Positions 2,066 to 21,242 of a stretch of 64,000 nucleotides of DNA are shown here, piece by piece; within the stretch, counting starts at the first letter, position 1; each line of letters starts with the position of its first letter. Origin of the DNA: Geothrix oryzisoli (GTDB lineage: Bacteria > Acidobacteriota > Holophagae > Holophagales > Holophagaceae); NCBI RefSeq assembly GCF_022808865.1, contig NZ_JAKZLB010000001.1, positions 1 through 64,000 on the forward strand, written 5' to 3'. The position numbers and the translations under genes are program-made. The notes under the pieces are model-generated. The model was not told the origin of the DNA. It saw nothing but the letters and a program-made list of their open reading frames with translations, and searched no databases.

Positions 2066-4912
2066 GTGACCAAACGGAGCCTCTGGCGCCTCGCCATCGT
2101 CCTCGCCGTGCTGTTCGGCTGCGGCTACTTCTTCACGCCCCTGTCCAAGGTGAAACTGGGTCTCGACCTCCGGGGCGGCGTCCACTTCGAGCTGGAAGTC
2201 CAGGGCCAGGAGGCCCTCGCGGCCGACCTGCGCGACAGCAAGGACCGCCTCGCGGCCCGCCTCAAGGAGAAGGGCCTTCCGGGCGCCATGGTCAGCCTGG
2301 ACGGCGATGCCCTCCGGGTGGAGGGCGTGGGCGCCGACCAGAAGGCCACGGTGGAGAAGGTCGCCAAGGATTTCTTCTCCGGCTACACCTTCGCGGCTGA
2401 GGGGGATGTCTTCCGGCTCAGTCAGAAGGACTCCTACCAGAAGCAGCTCAAGGATGACGCCAACAAGCGGGCTCTGGAGGTCATCGAGAAGCGCATCCGC
2501 GATATCGACCCCGCGAACGTGCTGGAACCCGAGATCACCGCCAGCGGCGCCGAAGGCAACCGCATCGTGGTCGAGATCCCCGGCATCGAGGAGGGCGACC
2601 GCGAGCGCATCAAGAAGCTGCTGGCCACGCCGGGTCACCTGGAGCAGCGCCTGCTGGCCAAGGCGCCCCAGCTCTACTTCAACTCCAAGGAAGAGGCCCT
2701 GGCCGCCTACAAGGGACAGATCCCCTCTGAGTTCGAACTGCTGCCCGAGATCGAGAGCGAGCGCCAGGCCCGTCGGACGGGCCAGGCCGTGGTGAAGGCC
2801 AAGCCCGGTGAAGAGAAGATCAGCCGCTGGGTGCTGCTGGAAAGCCGCGTGGCCGTGGATGGTGCCGACATCATCGATTCGCACCGCGCCTCCAACTCGC
2901 AGACCGAGGCCAACGAGGTCAACTTCACCCTCAACAAGAAGGGCGATGATGACTTCGCCCGCCTGACCGGCATCGCCTCCGAGGAGAACCGCTTCATCGC
3001 CATCGTGCTCGACCGCAAGATCGTCACGGAGCTGAGCGCCAAGGAGAAGATCATCGGCGGCGCGGTCCGCATCAGCGGCAGCTTCAGCGCGCAGGAGGCC
3101 GATGACCTGGCCAGCCAGCTTCGCAGCGGCGCCCTGCGCGCCCCCATGAAGTTCCTCGAGGAGCGCGTTGTGGGTCCCGGCCTGGGGCGCGACTCCATCC
3201 ACGCCGGCGTGCGGGCGGCCGTCATCGGCTTCGCCGCCATCATCGGGTTCATGGTGATCTTCTACCACTGGTCCGGTGCGAACGCGATCGTGGCCCTCAC
3301 CGTGAACGTGATCGTGATGATGGGCCTCCTGGGCTCCTTCCGGGCCACGCTGACCCTGCCGGGCATCGCCGGGTTCGTGCTCACCCTGGGCATGGCCGTG
3401 GACGCCAACATCCTCATCTTCGAGCGCATCAAGGAGGAACTGGGCCTGGGCAAGAGTGTGCCCGGCGCCATCGACGCGGGCTTCGACCGGGTGTTCTGGA
3501 CCATCGTGGACAGCCACGTGACCCAGCTCTTCGCGGCCCTGCTGCTCTTCATCTTCGGCACGGGCCCCGTGAAGGGCTTCGCCGTGACCCTCACCGTGGG
3601 CGTCGTGGCCTCGCTGTTCACCAGCATCTACATCAGCCGCTACATCTACGACTGGGTGCTGGAGCACCATCCGGGCACCAAGACGCTCTCCGTGGGCACC
3701 CACACGTTCTTCAAGGGCTCGTCCTACGACTTCATGAAGTACAAGGGCACGGCCATCGCCATCAGCTGGGGCATCATCCTGATCTCGCTCCTCTATGTGC
3801 GGCCCTGGAATCTCACCCACAGCAACCGCATCCACCTGGGCATGCAGTTCGTGGGCGGCAACGACATGACGGTGCGGTTCCGCGGCGCCATGGAGCCCGA
3901 AACCATCCGGGCCGCCCTGGCCAGGAACGGCTACACGGACGCCTCCGTCGTGGCCTACGAGAATGCCGACAAGACGATCCGCGACTTCTCCGTGAAGGTG
4001 AAAGCCCGGAAGGATGCGGATCAGAAGGACAGCACCATCCAGGCCAACGCCCTTCGCGCCATCTTCAAGCAGATGGACCCCGAAGGCGCGAGCAACCCGC
4101 TCCCGGCCATCAACCTCGAAGGCTCCAAGACGCTGACGGACACGCTGGTGAAGGCCAATCCCGCCGGCATCGGTGGGGATGAAACGGCGCTGCAGGCCAC
4201 CTACACCCCCTTCGCGGAGAAGATCATTGCCGGCCGCGACCGGCTGCCCTCGGGCCTCTACCAGAATTTCGGAGAGCTCCCGCAGGACCTGCCGCAAGCG
4301 GTGAAGGACACGGTCCAGAAGAACTACCGCCTGGGTTCCGTGGGCATCCTCAAGGACGAGAGCTTCTCCCCCAGCATCTCCGGCGAGTGGACGCGTAAGA
4401 CCCTCACGGCCGTGGCCTGGGCGCTTGGCGCCATCCTGGTCTATGTGATGTTCCGGTTCACGGCGAGTTACGCCGTGGGCGGCATCGTGTCCCTGATCCA
4501 CGACATGCTCATGGCCTTGGCCCTCTTCGCGGCCTTCGGCTATGAGTTCAATGTGCCCGTGGTGGCCAGCTTCCTCACCCTCATGGGCTACTCCATGGCG
4601 GACACCATCGTGGTGTTCGATCGAATCCGGGAGAACAGCCACCGGCCGGAGTACCGCCGCGCCACAGTGACCAAGCTGGTGAATGACTCCATCAACCAGA
4701 CCCTCGGCCGGACGATCCTCACCTCCCTGTCCGTGCTGTTCGTGTCGGTCTGCCTCTGGCTCTTCGGCGGCCCGGCCCTCCATGACCTGGCCTTCCCGCT
4801 GGTCATCGGCGTCATCACTGGCACCTACTCGTCCATCTACATCGCCAGCCCCGTGGTGGTGTACTGGGACCAGTGGTTCGGCGGCAAGGACAAGCTCAAG
4901 CAGCACGCCTAA
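2066..4912 (+). CDS. secDF: Fused SecD-SecF protein-export membrane protein
   Basis: SecD and SecF use the proton gradient to help pull secreted proteins through SecYEG. Here both are one 948-residue polypeptide. The SecD half has an N-terminal anchor, the GLDLRGG motif, a large periplasmic region including VLEPEITASGAEGNRIVVEIPG, and a six-helix block with AVDANILIFERIKEEL near residue 450. The SecF half begins near residue 555 (FKGSSYDFMKYKG then a transmembrane helix). It has its own FVGGNDMTVRF segment and a second helix block containing MADTIVVFDRIREN. GTG 2066 is taken as start because it directly precedes the charged-then-hydrophobic anchor (TKRSLWRLAIVLAVLFG). Fused SecDF is known in several bacteria, so the fusion is uncommon but not novel. 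A strong terminator follows. Confidence 0.95.
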   Translation: MTKRSLWRLAIVLAVLFGCGYFFTPLSKVKLGLDLRGGVHFELEVQGQEALAADLRDSKDRLAARLKEKGLPGAMVSLDGDALRVEGVGADQKATVEKVAKDFFSGYTFAAEGDVFRLSQKDSYQKQLKDDANKRALEVIEKRIRDIDPANVLEPEITASGAEGNRIVVEIPGIEEGDRERIKKLLATPGHLEQRLLAKAPQLYFNSKEEALAAYKGQIPSEFELLPEIESERQARRTGQAVVKAKPGEEKISRWVLLESRVAVDGADIIDSHRASNSQTEANEVNFTLNKKGDDDFARLTGIASEENRFIAIVLDRKIVTELSAKEKIIGGAVRISGSFSAQEADDLASQLRSGALRAPMKFLEERVVGPGLGRDSIHAGVRAAVIGFAAIIGFMVIFYHWSGANAIVALTVNVIVMMGLLGSFRATLTLPGIAGFVLTLGMAVDANILIFERIKEELGLGKSVPGAIDAGFDRVFWTIVDSHVTQLFAALLLFIFGTGPVKGFAVTLTVGVVASLFTSIYISRYIYDWVLEHHPGTKTLSVGTHTFFKGSSYDFMKYKGTAIAISWGIILISLLYVRPWNLTHSNRIHLGMQFVGGNDMTVRFRGAMEPETIRAALARNGYTDASVVAYENADKTIRDFSVKVKARKDADQKDSTIQANALRAIFKQMDPEGASNPLPAINLEGSKTLTDTLVKANPAGIGGDETALQATYTPFAEKIIAGRDRLPSGLYQNFGELPQDLPQAVKDTVQKNYRLGSVGILKDESFSPSISGEWTRKTLTAVAWALGAILVYVMFRFTASYAVGGIVSLIHDMLMALALFAAFGYEFNVPVVASFLTLMGYSMADTIVVFDRIRENSHRPEYRRATVTKLVNDSINQTLGRTILTSLSVLFVSVCLWLFGGPALHDLAFPLVIGVITGTYSSIYIASPVVVYWDQWFGGKDKLKQHA

Positions 4913-14935: not shown

Positions 14936-15631
14936 CTACCCTTGCCGGAACCCCTCGGACCGGTCGGTCCGTCGCGCTTGGATGAAGCGGTGGATCGGCT
15001 CGAGGTCCATGCCGGGGGTGGGATTCAGGACCACGCCCAGGCGGGTGGGATAGTCCTGGCCCTCGAGATAGGCCAGGTGCCGTACTTCACCGGGGCAGTG
15101 GAGGATCGAGCCATCGGGCAGCACCGCATCGATGTCCACCGGAGCGTGGAGGTCCACCATCAGGACCTCCTCCAGGGCGAGGCCGACCCCGGTTTCCGTG
15201 AGGTTCACCAGCAGGGCGTCGAGAACCTGTCCGCCCAGGCCCACGCGGACTTTCAGGGGCGCCTGCTCCGGGGCGGCGACGCGCATGTCGCGGCGGCGGT
15301 GCAGCTGGGCGGGTTCATGGGGCCAGTCGAGGCATAGGAGGGTGTCTCCGGCTCCGTCCTGAAGATGCGGGAGGAGGATGGACTCCAGGGTCAGCACTTC
15401 CTCCCCCAGCAGCACGGTGAGGGTGACGGGTGTGCCTTCGGCAGGCATGGCGTCCCGGGCGTGGAGGCCGGATAGCTCGAGCGTCGAGCCGGGACGGAAG
15501 CTGTGGATGCGGAGATCACCCAGCAGCCTGGAACTGGCGCCCTGGAGCCGGAGGCTCACCACCGCCTTGGTGAGACGGGCCTGGATGAGGAACTGTTCCA
15601 GGACGGGGGCCGACAAGGAGGAATGTCCCAT
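14936..15631 (-). CDS. PilZ-domain (c-di-GMP-binding) protein
   Basis: A 231-residue soluble protein with a YcgR-like layout: an N-terminal beta-rich domain (about 1-105), then a PilZ domain opening with HRRRDMRV (the RxxxR c-di-GMP motif) and continuing with NLTETGVGLAL (D/NxSxxG-type motif). It probably senses cyclic di-GMP and passes the signal by protein contact; no output domain is attached. It ends three bases from the 72-bp repeat and is the last gene of a minus-strand run with the metallophosphoesterase upstream. Confidence 0.85.
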   Translation of the reverse strand: MGHSSLSAPVLEQFLIQARLTKAVVSLRLQGASSRLLGDLRIHSFRPGSTLELSGLHARDAMPAEGTPVTLTVLLGEEVLTLESILLPHLQDGAGDTLLCLDWPHEPAQLHRRRDMRVAAPEQAPLKVRVGLGGQVLDALLVNLTETGVGLALEEVLMVDLHAPVDIDAVLPDGSILHCPGEVRHLAYLEGQDYPTRLGVVLNPTPGMDLEPIHRFIQARRTDRSEGFRQG

Positions 15632-15644
15632 GGGGTGGTGCCTT

Positions 15645-16385
15645 TCAAATGCCTTGGCTCAGTCTGTCTGCCAGGTTCGAATGGAGCCCGGCAGCCAGGA
15701 TGGCCTTGGCGGCGCCATGCACATCGTAATCCAGGCGGTGGAGGCGCACTCGCCGCCGCTTGGGGTCGTATGTCATGAAGGAGACTCGGGGATCGCGGTC
15801 CCTGGGCTGGCCCACGGAACCCGGATTCGCCAGGTACCGGCAGTGGGGTTGCATCTGGAACCAGTCGCCGGGCTGGAGGCAGATCCAATTCAGCCGGCCC
15901 TGCGCCTCGTCCAATTCGAAGCAGCCCGGCAGGTGGGTGTGGCCGAAGAAGCAGAGGGGTCCCTCGAAGGCGTCGAAGGCCTGGCCGATCTCGCGCATGT
16001 GAAGCAGGTAGGCGTCTTCATCCACCGGCGACCCGTGGGCGATCTGGTAGTCCTCGCCCACCCACAGCGGTCCCACCGGCAGGTCGGCCAGGAAGCGCCA
16101 GTTGTCCTGGCGAAGCTTCTCCCGGGTCCAGTCCGCCGCCTGCCGGGCGGGCAGGCTGAAGGCGTCATAGGGTTCGAGCCCGGCGCAGACCTTGTCGTGG
16201 TTGCCCCGGACCATGAACCGGGGCCGCAGCTCCCGCACCTTGTCCAGCAGCTGGTTGGGGTGGGCCCCATAGCCGACCAGGTCGCCCAGGAGCACGAAGC
16301 GGTGGATGGCCCGCCGCCGCACGAACCGCAGCACCGCACGGAGCGCGTGCAGGTTCGAGTGCAGGTCGGAGAGGATCAAATCCAC
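15645..16385 (-). CDS. Calcineurin-like metallophosphoesterase
   Basis: 246 residues with every metal-binding block of the family in order: LILSDLHSNLHAL (DxH), LLGDLVGYGAHP (GDxxxxG), VRGNHDKV (GNHD), IAHGSPVDED (GH/AHG) and FFGHTHLPG (GHTH). It lacks a signal peptide, so it is cytoplasmic. Such proteins hydrolyse phosphodiesters or phosphoproteins; the substrate cannot be read from sequence. The PilZ gene starts 13 bases downstream. Confidence 0.88.
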   Translation of the reverse strand: MDLILSDLHSNLHALRAVLRFVRRRAIHRFVLLGDLVGYGAHPNQLLDKVRELRPRFMVRGNHDKVCAGLEPYDAFSLPARQAADWTREKLRQDNWRFLADLPVGPLWVGEDYQIAHGSPVDEDAYLLHMREIGQAFDAFEGPLCFFGHTHLPGCFELDEAQGRLNWICLQPGDWFQMQPHCRYLANPGSVGQPRDRDPRVSFMTYDPKRRRVRLHRLDYDVHGAAKAILAAGLHSNLADRLSQGI

Positions 16386-16413: not shown

Positions 16414-17565
16414 CTACCAAGCCGCCACTAGGGCGGAGACAAGATCCTCCGGACCCCGGCCAAAGGGCAGCAGGGTGGGCGCAAGGGACCAGGCCGCGGC
16501 CCGGGCCGCGCACCGGGCCATGAAGGCGCTCCGGCCCTGGGCCAGGGGGCGGCGGGGATCGTGGCCCACCCGCCCCCAGGCCCGGACCGGAGGCTCGGCC
16601 AGCCAGAGAGGGGAAAATCCGGCGACGGCCACGAGGTCCCGGTTGGCCGGGGCCTCCCAGGCGCCGCCGCCCAGGGCCACCACGGCGGGGGTGGCCAGCA
16701 GGGGGGACAGGTGGCTGGTCTCCAGGGTTCGGAAGGCCGCTTCGCCCCGTTCGGCGAAGATCACACTCACGGGAACGCCCTGGTCCGCCTCGATGCGATC
16801 GTCCAGGTCGTGGAAGGGCAGGCCCAGCCGCTGGGCGAGGATCCGGCCGAGGGTGCTCTTGCCCGCGCCGCTGCCCCCCAGGAGCACGATGCCCTGGCCA
16901 GGGCGGAAGGGTGGCCGGACGCGCCACCGTTGCCGCTGGACCTCCCAGCCGAGGGTCGCGGGATCGGTGGACTGGTGGACTTCGCCCACCATCGCGAGGG
17001 CCTCCGCTCCGGCCTCGAAGCAGGGGGCGGCGTCCGCGAGGCCGAGGCCCCCGATGGCGACGGGGGCCAGATGCCTGGCCCGCAGCGCCGCACAGCCTGC
17101 CCGCAGTCCTTCCAGACCGATGGGCGCGGCGTGGTCGGACTTGGTGGCCGTGCCCCGGAAGGGGCCCACTCCCGCGTGATCACAGGCCGGATCCACGGCC
17201 TCCCATTCCGCGGGGGCGTGGGTGGAGGCGCCCACATGGCAGGCGCCCAGGCCCGGGAGCCCGATCGCTTCGGAAGCTGGCAGGTCCTCCTGGCCCAGGT
17301 GCAGGCCCCAGGGCGCCAGCCCCTCCCGGGCCGCGAGCATCGCCAGATCCGTCCGGTCATTCACGCAGATGAAGGGCCATCCGCCGTTCGCCGCCGCGTC
17401 GGCCAAGGCGGCCCGGAGTTCCGTCCACTGGGCCTTGGCATCCAGGGGCTTGCCCCGGAACTGCACCAGCGGGAAGCCCGCCTCACCCAGCCGGCGAACC
17501 TGCGCGGACAGGGCTTCCGGGCGCGTGGCGTCGGTGATCGGGTAGAGGGGCGGGAGGGGAAGCAT
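16414..17565 (-). CDS. Fusion of thiamine-phosphate synthase (ThiE) and shikimate kinase (AroK)
   Basis: A single 383-residue frame with two complete enzyme domains. Residues about 1-205 are ThiE: LVQFRGKPLDA (pyrophosphate Arg/Lys), CVNDRTDLA, GLHLGQEDLP, GASTH, GVGPFRGTATKSDHA and PVAIGGLGLADA. Residues about 220-383 are shikimate kinase: Walker A GGSGAGKSTLGRILAQRLG, DLDDRIE (shikimate/Mg Asp), EAAFRTLE, VVALGGGAWEAPANRD and a HDPRRPLAQ lid. ThiE joins HMP-PP and HET-P to thiamine phosphate; AroK phosphorylates shikimate. The pathways are unrelated, so the fusion is odd. There is no stop or frameshift between domains and active-site residues look intact on both sides. aroB lies 3.7 kb away on the other strand. 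Confidence 0.88.
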   Translation of the reverse strand: MLPLPPLYPITDATRPEALSAQVRRLGEAGFPLVQFRGKPLDAKAQWTELRAALADAAANGGWPFICVNDRTDLAMLAAREGLAPWGLHLGQEDLPASEAIGLPGLGACHVGASTHAPAEWEAVDPACDHAGVGPFRGTATKSDHAAPIGLEGLRAGCAALRARHLAPVAIGGLGLADAAPCFEAGAEALAMVGEVHQSTDPATLGWEVQRQRWRVRPPFRPGQGIVLLGGSGAGKSTLGRILAQRLGLPFHDLDDRIEADQGVPVSVIFAERGEAAFRTLETSHLSPLLATPAVVALGGGAWEAPANRDLVAVAGFSPLWLAEPPVRAWGRVGHDPRRPLAQGRSAFMARCAARAAAWSLAPTLLPFGRGPEDLVSALVAAW

Positions 17566-17611: not shown

Positions 17612-19399
17612 TCAGGCTGCCTCGCCCTCCGCGAACTGCAGCCGCACCAGCTTGGCGTACACGCCGTCCTGGGCGATGAGGGCGTCATGGTTGCCGCGCT
17701 CCACGAGGGCACCCTGGTCCATGACCCAGATCTCGTCGGCATCACGGATGGTGGACAGCCGGTGGGCGATGGTGAAGGTGGTGAGGCGGTGGCTCACATG
17801 CTCGATGACGTTCTGGATCTTGGCTTCGGTCTCGGAGTCGATGTTGGCGGTGGCCTCGTCCAGCAGCAGCACGGCGGGCTCCAGGTAGAGCATCCGCGCG
17901 AAGGCCAGCAGCTGCCGCTCGCCGGCGCTGAGCTTCTGGCCGCGCTCGCCCACCTGAGTGTCCAGACCCTGGGGCAGGCGGCCCACCAGGTCCTTCAGCT
18001 GACTCTGCTCCAGCACCGAAGCCAGGCGCGCCTCGTCCATGGGCCGGTCCAGCACGATGTTGTCGCGCAGCGTGCCGGAGAAGACGAAGACATCCTGGAG
18101 CACCAGGCCGAAGAGGTCCCGCAGGCTGCGGATCTTCAGGTCACGCACGTCCACGCCGTCCACGGTGATGCGGCCTTCATGCACGTCGTAGAACCGCATG
18201 AGCAGGTTGATGAGGGTGCTCTTGCCGGCGCCCGTGTGGCCCACCACGGCCACGCGCCGGCCCTTGGGGATGACGCCGCTCAGGCCGCGCACCACCTTCC
18301 GCCCGCCCTCTTCGTAGGCGAAGGTGACGTTCTCCAGGCGGACTTCCCGGGCGAAGGTCGCAGGCTTGGCGCCCGGCGCCTCGGGGATCTCCTCCTGGTT
18401 GTCCAGCAGGCGGAAGATGCGCTCGCTGGAGGCCAGTGCGGTCTGCATCACGTTGTAGCGCTCGGCCAGTTCCCGGATGGGCCGGAAGAAGCGCCCCGAC
18501 TGCTGGATGAAGGCCAGCAGCAGGCCCCAGGTGATGGCCCCCGCCTGGAGCTTGAACCCCGCATAGAAGATGAGCGCGGCCAGGGTGGCGGAGGTGATGA
18601 ACTCCACCACGGGGAAGAACACGGCGTAGGCGAAGATCGTGCGGAGAAAGGCCTGGAAGTAGTCCTCGTTGAGCCCCTTGAACTGCTGATCGCTGTGATG
18701 TTCCTGGGCGTTGACCTGGACCAGGCCCATGCCCGAGATCTGCTCCTGGAGGAAGGCGTTGATGCTGGCGTAGCGTCGCTGGGTCTCGCGGAAGGCCTCG
18801 CCGGCGCGGCGGCGGAAGATCTCGGTGGCGACCAGCAGGAAAGGCAGGATCCCCAGCGCCACCAGGGCCATGCCGGGGTGGGTCCAGAACATCCAGGCCA
18901 CGATGGCCAGCAGGGACAGGGCATCCCCCACGATGGCGACAAAGCCCGAGGCGAACATCTCGTTCAGGTTCTGGACATCGCTGGTGACGCGGGTCATGAG
19001 GCGGCCCACGGGGTTGCGGTGGAAGAACTCCGTGCTGCGCCCCATGAGGTGCGCGAAGAGCTGCACCCGCAGGTCGAGCATGGCCCTCTGGCCCACCCGG
19101 GCCAGCAGGAAGTAGCGGGCGAAGCTGACCAGGAAGCCCGCGATGAGCACCCCGAAGAAGCCCGCGATCATGGGGGCCGCGCCCCTCAGGCTGCCCTGGC
19201 TCATGAAGCGGTTGATGAGCCGCAGGGTCAGTTCCGAAGGCATCACCTCCAGGAAGGCGCCGAAGGCCATCAGAACCAGCAGGGCGAGCAGCGCCGCCCA
19301 CTGGGGGCGCAGGTACCCGGCCAGGCGCCACAGCAGCGTGTGGCGCATGGGCCGCTGGTCCATGCGGTCGGATTGGAAGAAGGCTCCCTGTTCGGACAT
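17612..19399 (-). CDS. ABC exporter half-transporter (MsbA/lipid-A-like type)
   Basis: A 595-residue fusion of a six-helix transmembrane domain (about 20-320) and an ATPase domain (about 345-595). The ATPase shows Walker A GHTGAGKST, Q-loop GLVLQDVF, signature LSAGERQLLAFAR (LSAGE rather than LSGGQ), Walker B AVLLLDEATANID and the H-loop TIAHRLSTI. The membrane part contains NPVGRLMTRVTSDVQNLNE, typical of type-IV (ABCB-like) exporters working as homo- or heterodimers. The substrate may be a lipid, drug or peptide; it is unknown. Start at ATG 19399; a longer frame to 19798 would run into the divergent peptidase gene and is rejected. Confidence 0.9.
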   Translation of the reverse strand: MSEQGAFFQSDRMDQRPMRHTLLWRLAGYLRPQWAALLALLVLMAFGAFLEVMPSELTLRLINRFMSQGSLRGAAPMIAGFFGVLIAGFLVSFARYFLLARVGQRAMLDLRVQLFAHLMGRSTEFFHRNPVGRLMTRVTSDVQNLNEMFASGFVAIVGDALSLLAIVAWMFWTHPGMALVALGILPFLLVATEIFRRRAGEAFRETQRRYASINAFLQEQISGMGLVQVNAQEHHSDQQFKGLNEDYFQAFLRTIFAYAVFFPVVEFITSATLAALIFYAGFKLQAGAITWGLLLAFIQQSGRFFRPIRELAERYNVMQTALASSERIFRLLDNQEEIPEAPGAKPATFAREVRLENVTFAYEEGGRKVVRGLSGVIPKGRRVAVVGHTGAGKSTLINLLMRFYDVHEGRITVDGVDVRDLKIRSLRDLFGLVLQDVFVFSGTLRDNIVLDRPMDEARLASVLEQSQLKDLVGRLPQGLDTQVGERGQKLSAGERQLLAFARMLYLEPAVLLLDEATANIDSETEAKIQNVIEHVSHRLTTFTIAHRLSTIRDADEIWVMDQGALVERGNHDALIAQDGVYAKLVRLQFAEGEAA

Positions 19400-19490
19400 G
19401 GGCCCATTCTCCCACAGGCGGCCGGATTCCTGCGGGATCCGGGACGGATCCCCGCGGCGCCGGTAAAGTAGAGGGATCGCCGGAGACGAC

Positions 19491-21242
19491 ATGGGCCCCT
19501 GGATCACCGCCTTCCTCGCCGCCACCCTCGTGGCGCAGGCGCCTCCTGCGGGGTCGACGGCCGAATCGCGGCTGCGCCGGGAGGTGGCGTTCCTGGCCTC
19601 ACCGGAACTCAAGGGCCGGGGCAATGGGTACCCGGAACTGGACCGGGCCGCCGCCCACCTGCTCCGGGAGTGGAAGGCCCTGGGCCTGAAGGCGCAGATC
19701 CAGCGCTTCCCCTTCATCGCCAAGGTGGTGCGGGAGGAGCAGGGCGCCCTCCTGAGCCAGGGCGAGACTGGGCGCACGCTGGCCTGGGGACGGGACATCG
19801 AGGCCTTCGGCTACAGCGGGGACGCGGACTTCCGCATGAAGCCCCTCGCCTTCCTCGGCTATGGCGTCCGGATCCCCGGGGGGTACGACGACCTCGCCGG
19901 GATCGAGGTGAGGGACCGCGTGGCGGTCATCGCCCGCACCCTGCCGGATACGGAGGTCTTCGCCCACCTGCCCCGGGGCGAGCGGAGCCTGCTGGCGCGC
20001 ATCAAGCGCCTGGAATCGGCCAAGGCGGCCGCGGTGCTGGTGCTGGAGGACGGCCCGGCCCGCCCGCTGCAGCGGGAGGAGGGGCCCGTGCAGCTGGCCA
20101 TTCCCGTGCTCAGCCTGGGCGCGGATGCCATCGGCACGGCTTGCGGAGACCTGCAGGCCCGCTTCAAGGCCATCCGGGAGACCGGCCGGCCCGCCAGCCA
20201 GGACTTCATCTATGCGCCCTGGACGACGCTCACGCTGAGGCTCAAGCTCCGTCGCGAAGAGGCCCAGGTGCCCAATGTGGTGGCCGAGATCCCGGGCCGC
20301 GACCCCAAACTCAGAAAGGAATACATCGTCCTCGGGGCGCACCTGGACCACCTGGGCCTGGGTGAGCGCCACAGCCTCGGCGGGGCGGAGGCCCGCGGGC
20401 AGGTGCATCCCGGGGCTGATGACAACGCCTCCGGTGCGGCCCTGGTGGTGGAACTCGCCCGGGAACTGCGGCGGCCCCGGCCCCGCCGGTCCATCCTGCT
20501 GCTGCACTTCGGGGGCGAAGAGGAGGGCCTGCTGGGTTCCAGCTACTGGATCCAGCACCCCACCCATCCGCTGGAGTCCGTGAAGTTCATGTTCAACTTC
20601 GACATGGTGGGCCGCCTGGATGCTGCGTCGCCCAGGCTGTTGATGGGCGGCCTGGGCGCCCCGAAGGCGGCCCTGGAGGCCGCGAAGCAGCTGGCGCCGG
20701 AGGGCTTCGCCATCAGCGCCGACGTGGGCGCGGCCGTGGGCGGTTCGGACCACATGAGCTTCTCCCAGGCGAAGATCCCCACGTTCTTCTTCTTCACGGG
20801 GATCCACGGCGATTACCACCGGCCCACGGACACCGCGGACCGCATCGATTTCGCCGGCCTGGCGAAGCTGGCCGGCTACGGCCGGACCCTGGTGCTGGAT
20901 CTGGCCAATGCGGATGCGCTGCCGGCCTTCGACCCCGACACCGCCAAGGTGCCGATGCGGGGCGATGGCGGACCCATGCGGATCGCCTTCGGCACCCTCC
21001 CCGACTACGCGGACAACCCCCGGGGCTTCCGCATCAACGGGGTGTCCAAGGGATCCACCGCCGAGGCCCTCGGGCTCCAGGGGGGCGACATCATCATCCG
21101 GTTCGGTGACCGGCCCGTGAGGTCCATCTACGATTTCATGGATGCCCTCGGCGCCCATAAGCCCGGGGACAAGACCATGGTCCAATGGATCCGGGGGGAT
21201 CACACCATGCAGGCCGAGGCCACGCTGAAAGGCCGCCCATGA
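19491..21242 (+). CDS. Exported M28 aminopeptidase with C-terminal PDZ domain
   Basis: 583 residues. A signal peptide (MGPWITAFLAATLVAQAPPAG) is followed by a domain with a protease-associated-like insert (about 110-240) and then the M28 zinc core. The ligands are all visible: His in GAHLDHLGLG, bridging Asp in HPGADDNASG, Glu pair in HFGGEEEGLLGS, Asp in NFDMVGR, and a final His in DYHRPTDTADR. The last ~90 residues form a PDZ domain (RGFRINGVSKGSTAEALGLQ, GGDIIIRFGD). It probably trims peptides in the periplasm or outside the cell. Its stop overlaps the aroB start (ATGA). Confidence 0.9.
   Translation: MGPWITAFLAATLVAQAPPAGSTAESRLRREVAFLASPELKGRGNGYPELDRAAAHLLREWKALGLKAQIQRFPFIAKVVREEQGALLSQGETGRTLAWGRDIEAFGYSGDADFRMKPLAFLGYGVRIPGGYDDLAGIEVRDRVAVIARTLPDTEVFAHLPRGERSLLARIKRLESAKAAAVLVLEDGPARPLQREEGPVQLAIPVLSLGADAIGTACGDLQARFKAIRETGRPASQDFIYAPWTTLTLRLKLRREEAQVPNVVAEIPGRDPKLRKEYIVLGAHLDHLGLGERHSLGGAEARGQVHPGADDNASGAALVVELARELRRPRPRRSILLLHFGGEEEGLLGSSYWIQHPTHPLESVKFMFNFDMVGRLDAASPRLLMGGLGAPKAALEAAKQLAPEGFAISADVGAAVGGSDHMSFSQAKIPTFFFFTGIHGDYHRPTDTADRIDFAGLAKLAGYGRTLVLDLANADALPAFDPDTAKVPMRGDGGPMRIAFGTLPDYADNPRGFRINGVSKGSTAEALGLQGGDIIIRFGDRPVRSIYDFMDALGAHKPGDKTMVQWIRGDHTMQAEATLKGRP

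Follow-up and report, generated by a model that had tools for sequence, protein, structure and literature searches.

Here we report that Geothrix oryzisoli (Acidobacteriota; Holophagaceae) encodes a thiamine phosphate synthase (ThiE) domain and a shikimate kinase domain in a single reading frame, and we consider it probable that this two-domain protein is bifunctional, with halves that act independently, and that it derives from the joining of two neighbouring genes, thiE and aroK. The N-terminal half would join HMP-PP to thiazole phosphate, giving thiamine phosphate, and the ATP-dependent phosphorylation of shikimate would fall to the C-terminal half. The two probably work independently of each other, with no chemical connection between their reactions. 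The pair of domains is unusual; the route by which it came about looks ordinary, and the halves look independent of one another.

The fused gene and its domains

The window analysed is a stretch of 64,000 nucleotides (contig NZ_JAKZLB010000001.1, positions 1 to 64,000), in which the fused gene, its parts and its neighbours are arranged as follows.

16414..17565, minus strand: ThiE-shikimate kinase fusion, whole gene, 383 aa (ATG-to-stop open reading frame; Pfam; solved-structure matches)
16981..17547, minus strand: ThiE (TMP-TENI) half (PF02581 match, 101.5 bits in the genome profile search)
16894..16965, minus strand: linker, residues 201-224 (W207 and Q210 unchanged in all 67 family members)
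16525..16869, minus strand: shikimate kinase (SKI) half, Pfam-matched part (PF01202 match, 102 bits)
on to 16417, minus strand: C-terminal part of the kinase half (alignment to M. tuberculosis shikimate kinase, to fusion residue 359)
15645..16385, minus strand: metallophosphoesterase (MPE), 28 bases downstream of the fusion
14936..15631, minus strand: PilZ-domain protein, the next same-strand gene after the MPE
17612..19798, minus strand: ABC transporter (membrane and ATPase parts), upstream of the fusion; its true start probably lies within this open reading frame

At the protein level, the TMP-TENI domain (Pfam PF02581) spans residues 7-195 with 99.3 bits against a cut-off of 27, and the SKI domain (PF01202) spans residues 233-347 with 99.8 bits against a cut-off of 22.1. 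Among solved structures, residues 23-206 match the thiamin phosphate synthase of B. subtilis (E 9.1e-18), and residues 224-344 match shikimate kinases (best E 3.2e-15). With both Pfam domains over their cut-offs and active-site residues kept, the statement of the initial annotation that two enzymes share one frame, with the motifs of both visible, is borne out. The NCBIfam equivalog cut-offs are missed by the Geothrix fusion, both for thiE (TIGR00693; 95.3 versus 145.1 bits) and for shikimate kinase (best model 88.2 versus 186 bits); two distant fusions that were tested (L175, 154.5 bits; L176, 172.7 bits) meet that of TIGR00693. A structure model of the fusion, built from nine sequences and of middling quality (pLDDT 75.6, residues 117-147 under 50), returned thiamin phosphate synthases and shikimate kinases as Foldseek matches. 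The best structure match was THI6, through long alignments with an rmsd of 17 to 21, which in our reading would reflect its ThiE part only.

A frameshift or sequencing error at the junction, named at the outset as a possible refutation, was looked for and is absent: the reading frame is open throughout from ThiE to kinase and full-length fusions could be assembled from 67 of the 77 genomes of the family. The protein is therefore a genuine two-domain protein and not a sequencing error.

Distribution of the fusion

Matches to the fusion protein occur in 75 of the 77 family genomes and in all 11 genera, confirming the earlier suggestion that the fusion may mark a lineage. Eight of these matches are partial, most of them at a contig end, and no match was found in G027 (77% complete) or G059 (91%). 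An SKI match occurs in 75 family genomes and in every one of them falls inside the hit to the fusion protein (partial in eight; compared by eye), and G069 (8% contamination) is the sole family genome with a further SKI match outside it. A fusion with 86% identity is present in Geothrix fermentans (contig NZ_AUAU01000009.1), and likewise in G007 of the same genus (G007:C6). Within the same class, separate kinases in frames of 169-213 aa were found in f2 (7 genomes), and the kinase lies in frames of 424-445 aa in f3 (9 genomes). The f3 frames are an AroE-shikimate kinase fusion with the kinase C-terminal (by Pfam for L044, 637-1974; by eye for L046 and L053), and f2 also holds a ThiD-ThiE frame (L089, 349-2061), another type of ThiE fusion within the class.

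The search for the ThiE plus SKI architecture proposed in the initial annotation covered Acidobacteriota (family, class and a phylum sample), plus a contig scan that recovers close relatives only, and revealed a fusion that is family-wide and also present in other lineages. The phylum sample of 396 genomes yielded at least three further full-span fusions (G265, G340 and G193), and the class of G340 (148 genomes, without G193) at least six (G340, G533, G532, G531, G265 and G539). Among plasmid records, none of the 209 matching ones reaches 80% cover of the fusion. No description of a ThiE-shikimate kinase fusion was recognised in the literature searches made, nor is one reported in those parts of PMC2776528 and PMC11237513 that were available to us.

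Gene order in relatives and the origin of the join

The class of G340 shows the gene row accC-thiE-aroK-MPE. Among 17 unfused loci from this class, picked from hits and not at random, accC, thiE and aroK stand in a row in 15, with thiE directly before aroK in nine and an intervening gene in six; in G475, G457, G312, G486 and G433 this gene is sodium:neurotransmitter symporter-like (Pfam-confirmed in G457), and the sixth such locus, G305, falls outside the symporter count. The remaining two (G534 and G543) have accC-aroK without thiE, as does G382, which lies outside the 17. An MPE follows aroK in 16 of the 17, the exception being G215. Six of the nine direct thiE-aroK junctions consist of a 4-base overlap (ATGA or GTGA), the others being a 16-base overlap in G501 and gaps in G488 and G215. 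Outside the family, fused forms with the same neighbours are found in G340's class and in one further lineage: of the seven such loci, all have an MPE downstream and six have accC upstream, and the seventh (G531) is truncated by the end of its contig. Elsewhere in the phylum, accC directly precedes thiE in 11 of 25 thiE loci and an MPE directly follows aroK in 7 of 22 aroK loci (best hits in each case). In one locus (L259 of G172; 3678-4253 and 4419-4907) the thiE gene adjoins a shikimate kinase match on the opposite strand, the two facing each other.

Taken together, these arrangements suggest that the fusion most likely arose through the adjacency of thiE and aroK seen in relatives. Where the two genes adjoin in this acidobacterial row, often with a 4-base stop/start overlap, a small indel or the loss of a stop could have fused them; we infer, rather than observe, both this route and which lineage fused when. 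With thiE and aroK side by side in relatives, the fusion can be explained without any connection between the two pathways. The initial annotation knew of no general rule linking the two domains; the adjacency of their genes in relatives is a pattern that could not be seen from the window alone. Once formed, the fusion would persist because the kinase half is the sole shikimate kinase and because most family species have no good ThiE other than the fused half.

The window's family commonly shows an ABC transporter, the fusion, an MPE and PilZ in that order; MPE and PilZ lie downstream in 21 of the 30 loci read there, and the ABC transporter is nearby in 24 (matches above 60 bits). accC is not a neighbour of the fusion there, and no unfused stage was seen in the family. 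The MPE of the window (15645-16385) shares 45-48% identity with the MPEs beside the fusions of G193, G265 and G340, and no MPE was found beside the fusion in the g2, g3 and g11 loci (9 loci, of which L143 ends at a contig end). The association with the MPE is old, since it is present in other lineages, and not universal, given its absence from g2, g3 and g11. Several lineages have an MPE downstream of aroK or of the fusion, and its tie to aroK occurs without thiE as well.

To examine the number of fusion events, trees were built from 80 ThiE and 95 kinase rows, with 20 of the 67 family fusions used and both identical rows and rows of less than 120 aa dropped. The family fusions form one group in the kinase tree (support 100) and in the ThiE tree (99); the f67/f78 fusions form a separate group elsewhere in the former (94), and G193 and G539 lie near f67/f78 in the latter. 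None of the groupings was rejected in seven one-clade tests (p 0.149 to 0.821); one ancient fusion followed by splits is therefore possible. Because the linkers of G193, G265 and G340 are unlike that of the family in the alignment, the evidence leans towards separate joins.

Active sites, selection and other pathway genes

Both halves of the Geothrix fusion are probably active, and we infer catalysis by both from the residues that they retain. All 11 positions checked in the ThiE half (R, K, ND, D, S, T/S, T/S, K, GG) and all 12 checked in the kinase half (Walker A, DxD, FRxxE, GxG, LID Arg, later Arg) are kept; these positions were chosen from ThiE and shikimate kinase structures as ones that we take to be important. 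Across the family, the full ThiE set is kept in 62 of 67 fusions, the exceptions being G051, G072 and, with one change (139P), G001-G003, and the full kinase set in 66 of 67, the exception being G064 (E at 253). Of the distant fusions aligned, G340 keeps all positions, whereas the ThiE half is changed at one position in G193 (142R) and at two in G265 (69D and 141V); none of the three has a kinase-site change. Furthermore, both halves are under purifying selection, with a median dN/dS of 0.17 for the ThiE half and 0.32 for the kinase half (171 pairs from 19 Geothrix genomes). The three genomes with the T139 to P change are strongly reduced (0.9-1.2 Mb), and they keep the fusion, ThiC and ThiG.

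The Geothrix genome under study (3.23 Mb, 98% complete) was searched with profiles for separate copies of either enzyme, as had been proposed initially. The Pfam SKI profile matches once in the whole genome, inside the fusion, and finds no separate aroK. Two TMP-TENI matches were obtained, the fusion and a 185-aa TenI-like protein, which scores 28.1 against 145.1 bits on the thiE equivalog and by eye lacks the ND and GQxD motifs. This small protein is unlikely to be the real ThiE of Geothrix, given its missing key motifs and low equivalog score, and the fused half is, on its sequence, the only plausible candidate for that role. Because there is no separate aroK and the other ThiE-like gene is TenI-like, the refutation foreseen earlier, that separate functional copies make one half dispensable, did not occur. 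Profile searches also found ThiC, ThiG and chorismate synthase in this genome, along with a weak ThiD-like match (65 bits). Many genomes of the family also carry a TenI-like paralogue without ThiE motifs (L003, 1444-2001, about 40 bits), which may be a thiazole tautomerase.

Decay of the ThiE half and a possible role of the linker

A few fusions combine a decayed ThiE half with an intact kinase half. In G072 (89% complete) the ThiE half has lost five checked residues and the kinase half none; this genome is without a match to ThiC or ThiG, its only TMP-TENI match is the fusion, and it carries a near-cut-off TPP riboswitch-like element in a stretch with thiamin pyrophosphokinase and a solute-binding protein. 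In G051, which has two other TMP-TENI genes, one of them beside ThiG, the fused ThiE half has lost seven checked residues and scores 22.4 bits against the Pfam cut-off of 27; its ThiE branch measures 1.3 versus 0.021 in the sister G050, and the corresponding kinase branches 0.24 and 0.13. Similarly, the ThiE half of G539, from another class, has a branch of 2.11 and motifs lost (by eye), with 69.6 Pfam bits still over part of it, and its kinase half scores 123.9 bits. Decay does not follow cleanly from the loss of thiamine genes. Neither ThiC nor ThiG was seen in three family genomes, and of these only G072 has a decayed ThiE half; in G010 (64% complete) and G074 (69%) neither gene was seen yet all checked ThiE residues are kept, and given this low completeness ThiC and ThiG may merely be missing from the assemblies. 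G061 (96% complete) has ThiG and no ThiC, and its partly read ThiE half still scores. A canonical ThiE stands beside an intact fused ThiE in seven genomes (G050, G060, G063, G065, G066, G069 and G070), in G065 adjoining a hydroxyethylthiazole kinase gene. Since the kinase half stayed in G072, G051 and G539, this one-sided decay argues against coupled activities, the cases being few (two in 67 family fusions, plus G539).

That decayed ThiE halves persist undeleted, and that the linker stays invariant, is not what a purely accidental join predicts. An alternative, rather unlikely overall, is that the ThiE barrel serves the kinase structurally, in folding, oligomer formation or docking, such that the fusion is kept after ThiE activity is lost. 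Within the linker, where the model predicts a helix at residues 202-216, all 67 family fusions carry W207 and Q210 (WxxQ), with R213 in 64 and W214 in 63, and W207 and Q210 are retained in G051 and G072 despite their decayed ThiE sites; moreover, the ThiE half is still present in all three decayed cases. Because WxxQ is invariant even where ThiE has decayed, a structural role for the linker is possible, in which the kinase would be supported by the barrel of ThiE or just by the final helix of that barrel. Against such a role, the motif is absent from G193, G265 and G340, the relatives of G539 (G534 and G543) keep accC-aroK-MPE without any ThiE, and the decay of ThiE may just be recent. A version restricted to Holophagaceae, which we regard as doubtful, would make the ThiE barrel the structural partner of the kinase through a WxxQxxRW helix, so that it becomes a pseudoenzyme, still needed by the kinase, where thiamine synthesis has been lost or replaced.

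Other readings of the fusion

It is improbable that the ThiE half of Geothrix is a changed or dead domain rather than a thiamine phosphate synthase. Such a change could account for its low thiE equivalog score, for a Pfam score of about 100 bits where canonical ThiE in the family reaches about 200, and for VGEV, common in the family, at the place where the B. subtilis enzyme has serine; yet the complete set of 11 checked positions, the dN/dS of 0.17 and the presence of ThiC and ThiG with no other good ThiE speak for a working enzyme.

We regard it as very improbable that shared regulation or channelling ties thiamine synthesis to aromatic synthesis through the fusion. ThiE and shikimate kinase belong to different pathways, and to our knowledge their reactions share no substrate or product; a fusion of the Rosetta-stone type, which signals a functional link, would have both halves in one pathway, which is not the case for ThiE and shikimate kinase. 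The retention of the fusion across the family, even in genomes of 0.9-1.2 Mb, would fit such a link, but the ThiE half can decay alone with the kinase half intact, and the row in relatives also carries accC, a phosphoesterase and in some a symporter. In addition, no TPP riboswitch was found in the window, in the thiC and thiG stretches, or genome-wide in Geothrix, and control of the fused gene by TPP is rejected accordingly; in the class, 8 of 93 genomes have one (the genome-wide search and that of the class both used stricter filters, by which weak matches are lost), and 74 of the 77 family genomes showed no TPP riboswitch-like element. The regulatory link raised in the initial annotation is thus unsupported, given the adjacency in relatives, the one-sided decay of ThiE and the lack of a TPP riboswitch in the Geothrix genome. 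A scan of promoters and terminators gave nothing above chance. Other elements were noted in passing: the thiG and thiC stretches of Geothrix carry lysine and SAM riboswitches (L158, 4710-4889; L159, 5527-5627), and TPP riboswitch-like elements just below the cut-off occur in L281 (G072) and L282 (G071), both near a thiamin pyrophosphokinase (Pfam-confirmed in L281, by eye in L282). Finally, an assembly or frameshift artefact, in favour of which nothing was found, is rejected as having practically no chance in view of the 67 full-length copies.

Significance and comparison with known systems

Independent halves joined from neighbouring genes remain our preferred explanation. The separate, overlapping, fused and half-decayed states are all visible in living relatives, such that a fusion between unrelated pathways can be traced. 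It also offers a caution, in that not every enzyme fusion signifies a functional link, adjacency being the best explanation of the one in Geothrix, and it constitutes a natural test of the fate of a fused enzyme half once the need for it has gone.

Compared with B. subtilis ThiE (PF02581; 2TPS/1G4T), the Geothrix half has the same fold, 28% identity (by model comparison) and the same pyrophosphate and substrate residues, but it is fused to a kinase, carries VGEV where that enzyme has its serine loop, and falls below the NCBIfam equivalog cut-off. With M. tuberculosis AroK/AroL (PF01202; 1L4U/2IYQ) the kinase half has in common the Walker A, DxD, FRxxE and GGG motifs, the LID arginine and the later arginine, and the kinase structures 1l4u, 2iyq and 1u8a give target-normalised TM-scores of 0.82-0.85 to the fusion model; unlike these enzymes, it follows ThiE and has a diverged C-terminal part, the Pfam match ending at profile position 116 of 159. 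ThiE is likewise joined to a kinase in yeast-type THI6 (with hydroxyethylthiazole kinase) and in bacterial ThiD-ThiE; these proteins join steps of one pathway, whereas the partner in the Geothrix fusion comes from another. Shikimate kinase, in turn, is likewise one part of a larger protein in AROM, AroK-AroB and AroE-AroK, the last of which is reported from Methanomicrobiales and two bacterial assemblies in the part of PMC11237513 available to us. The partners in all three belong to the shikimate pathway, unlike ThiE.
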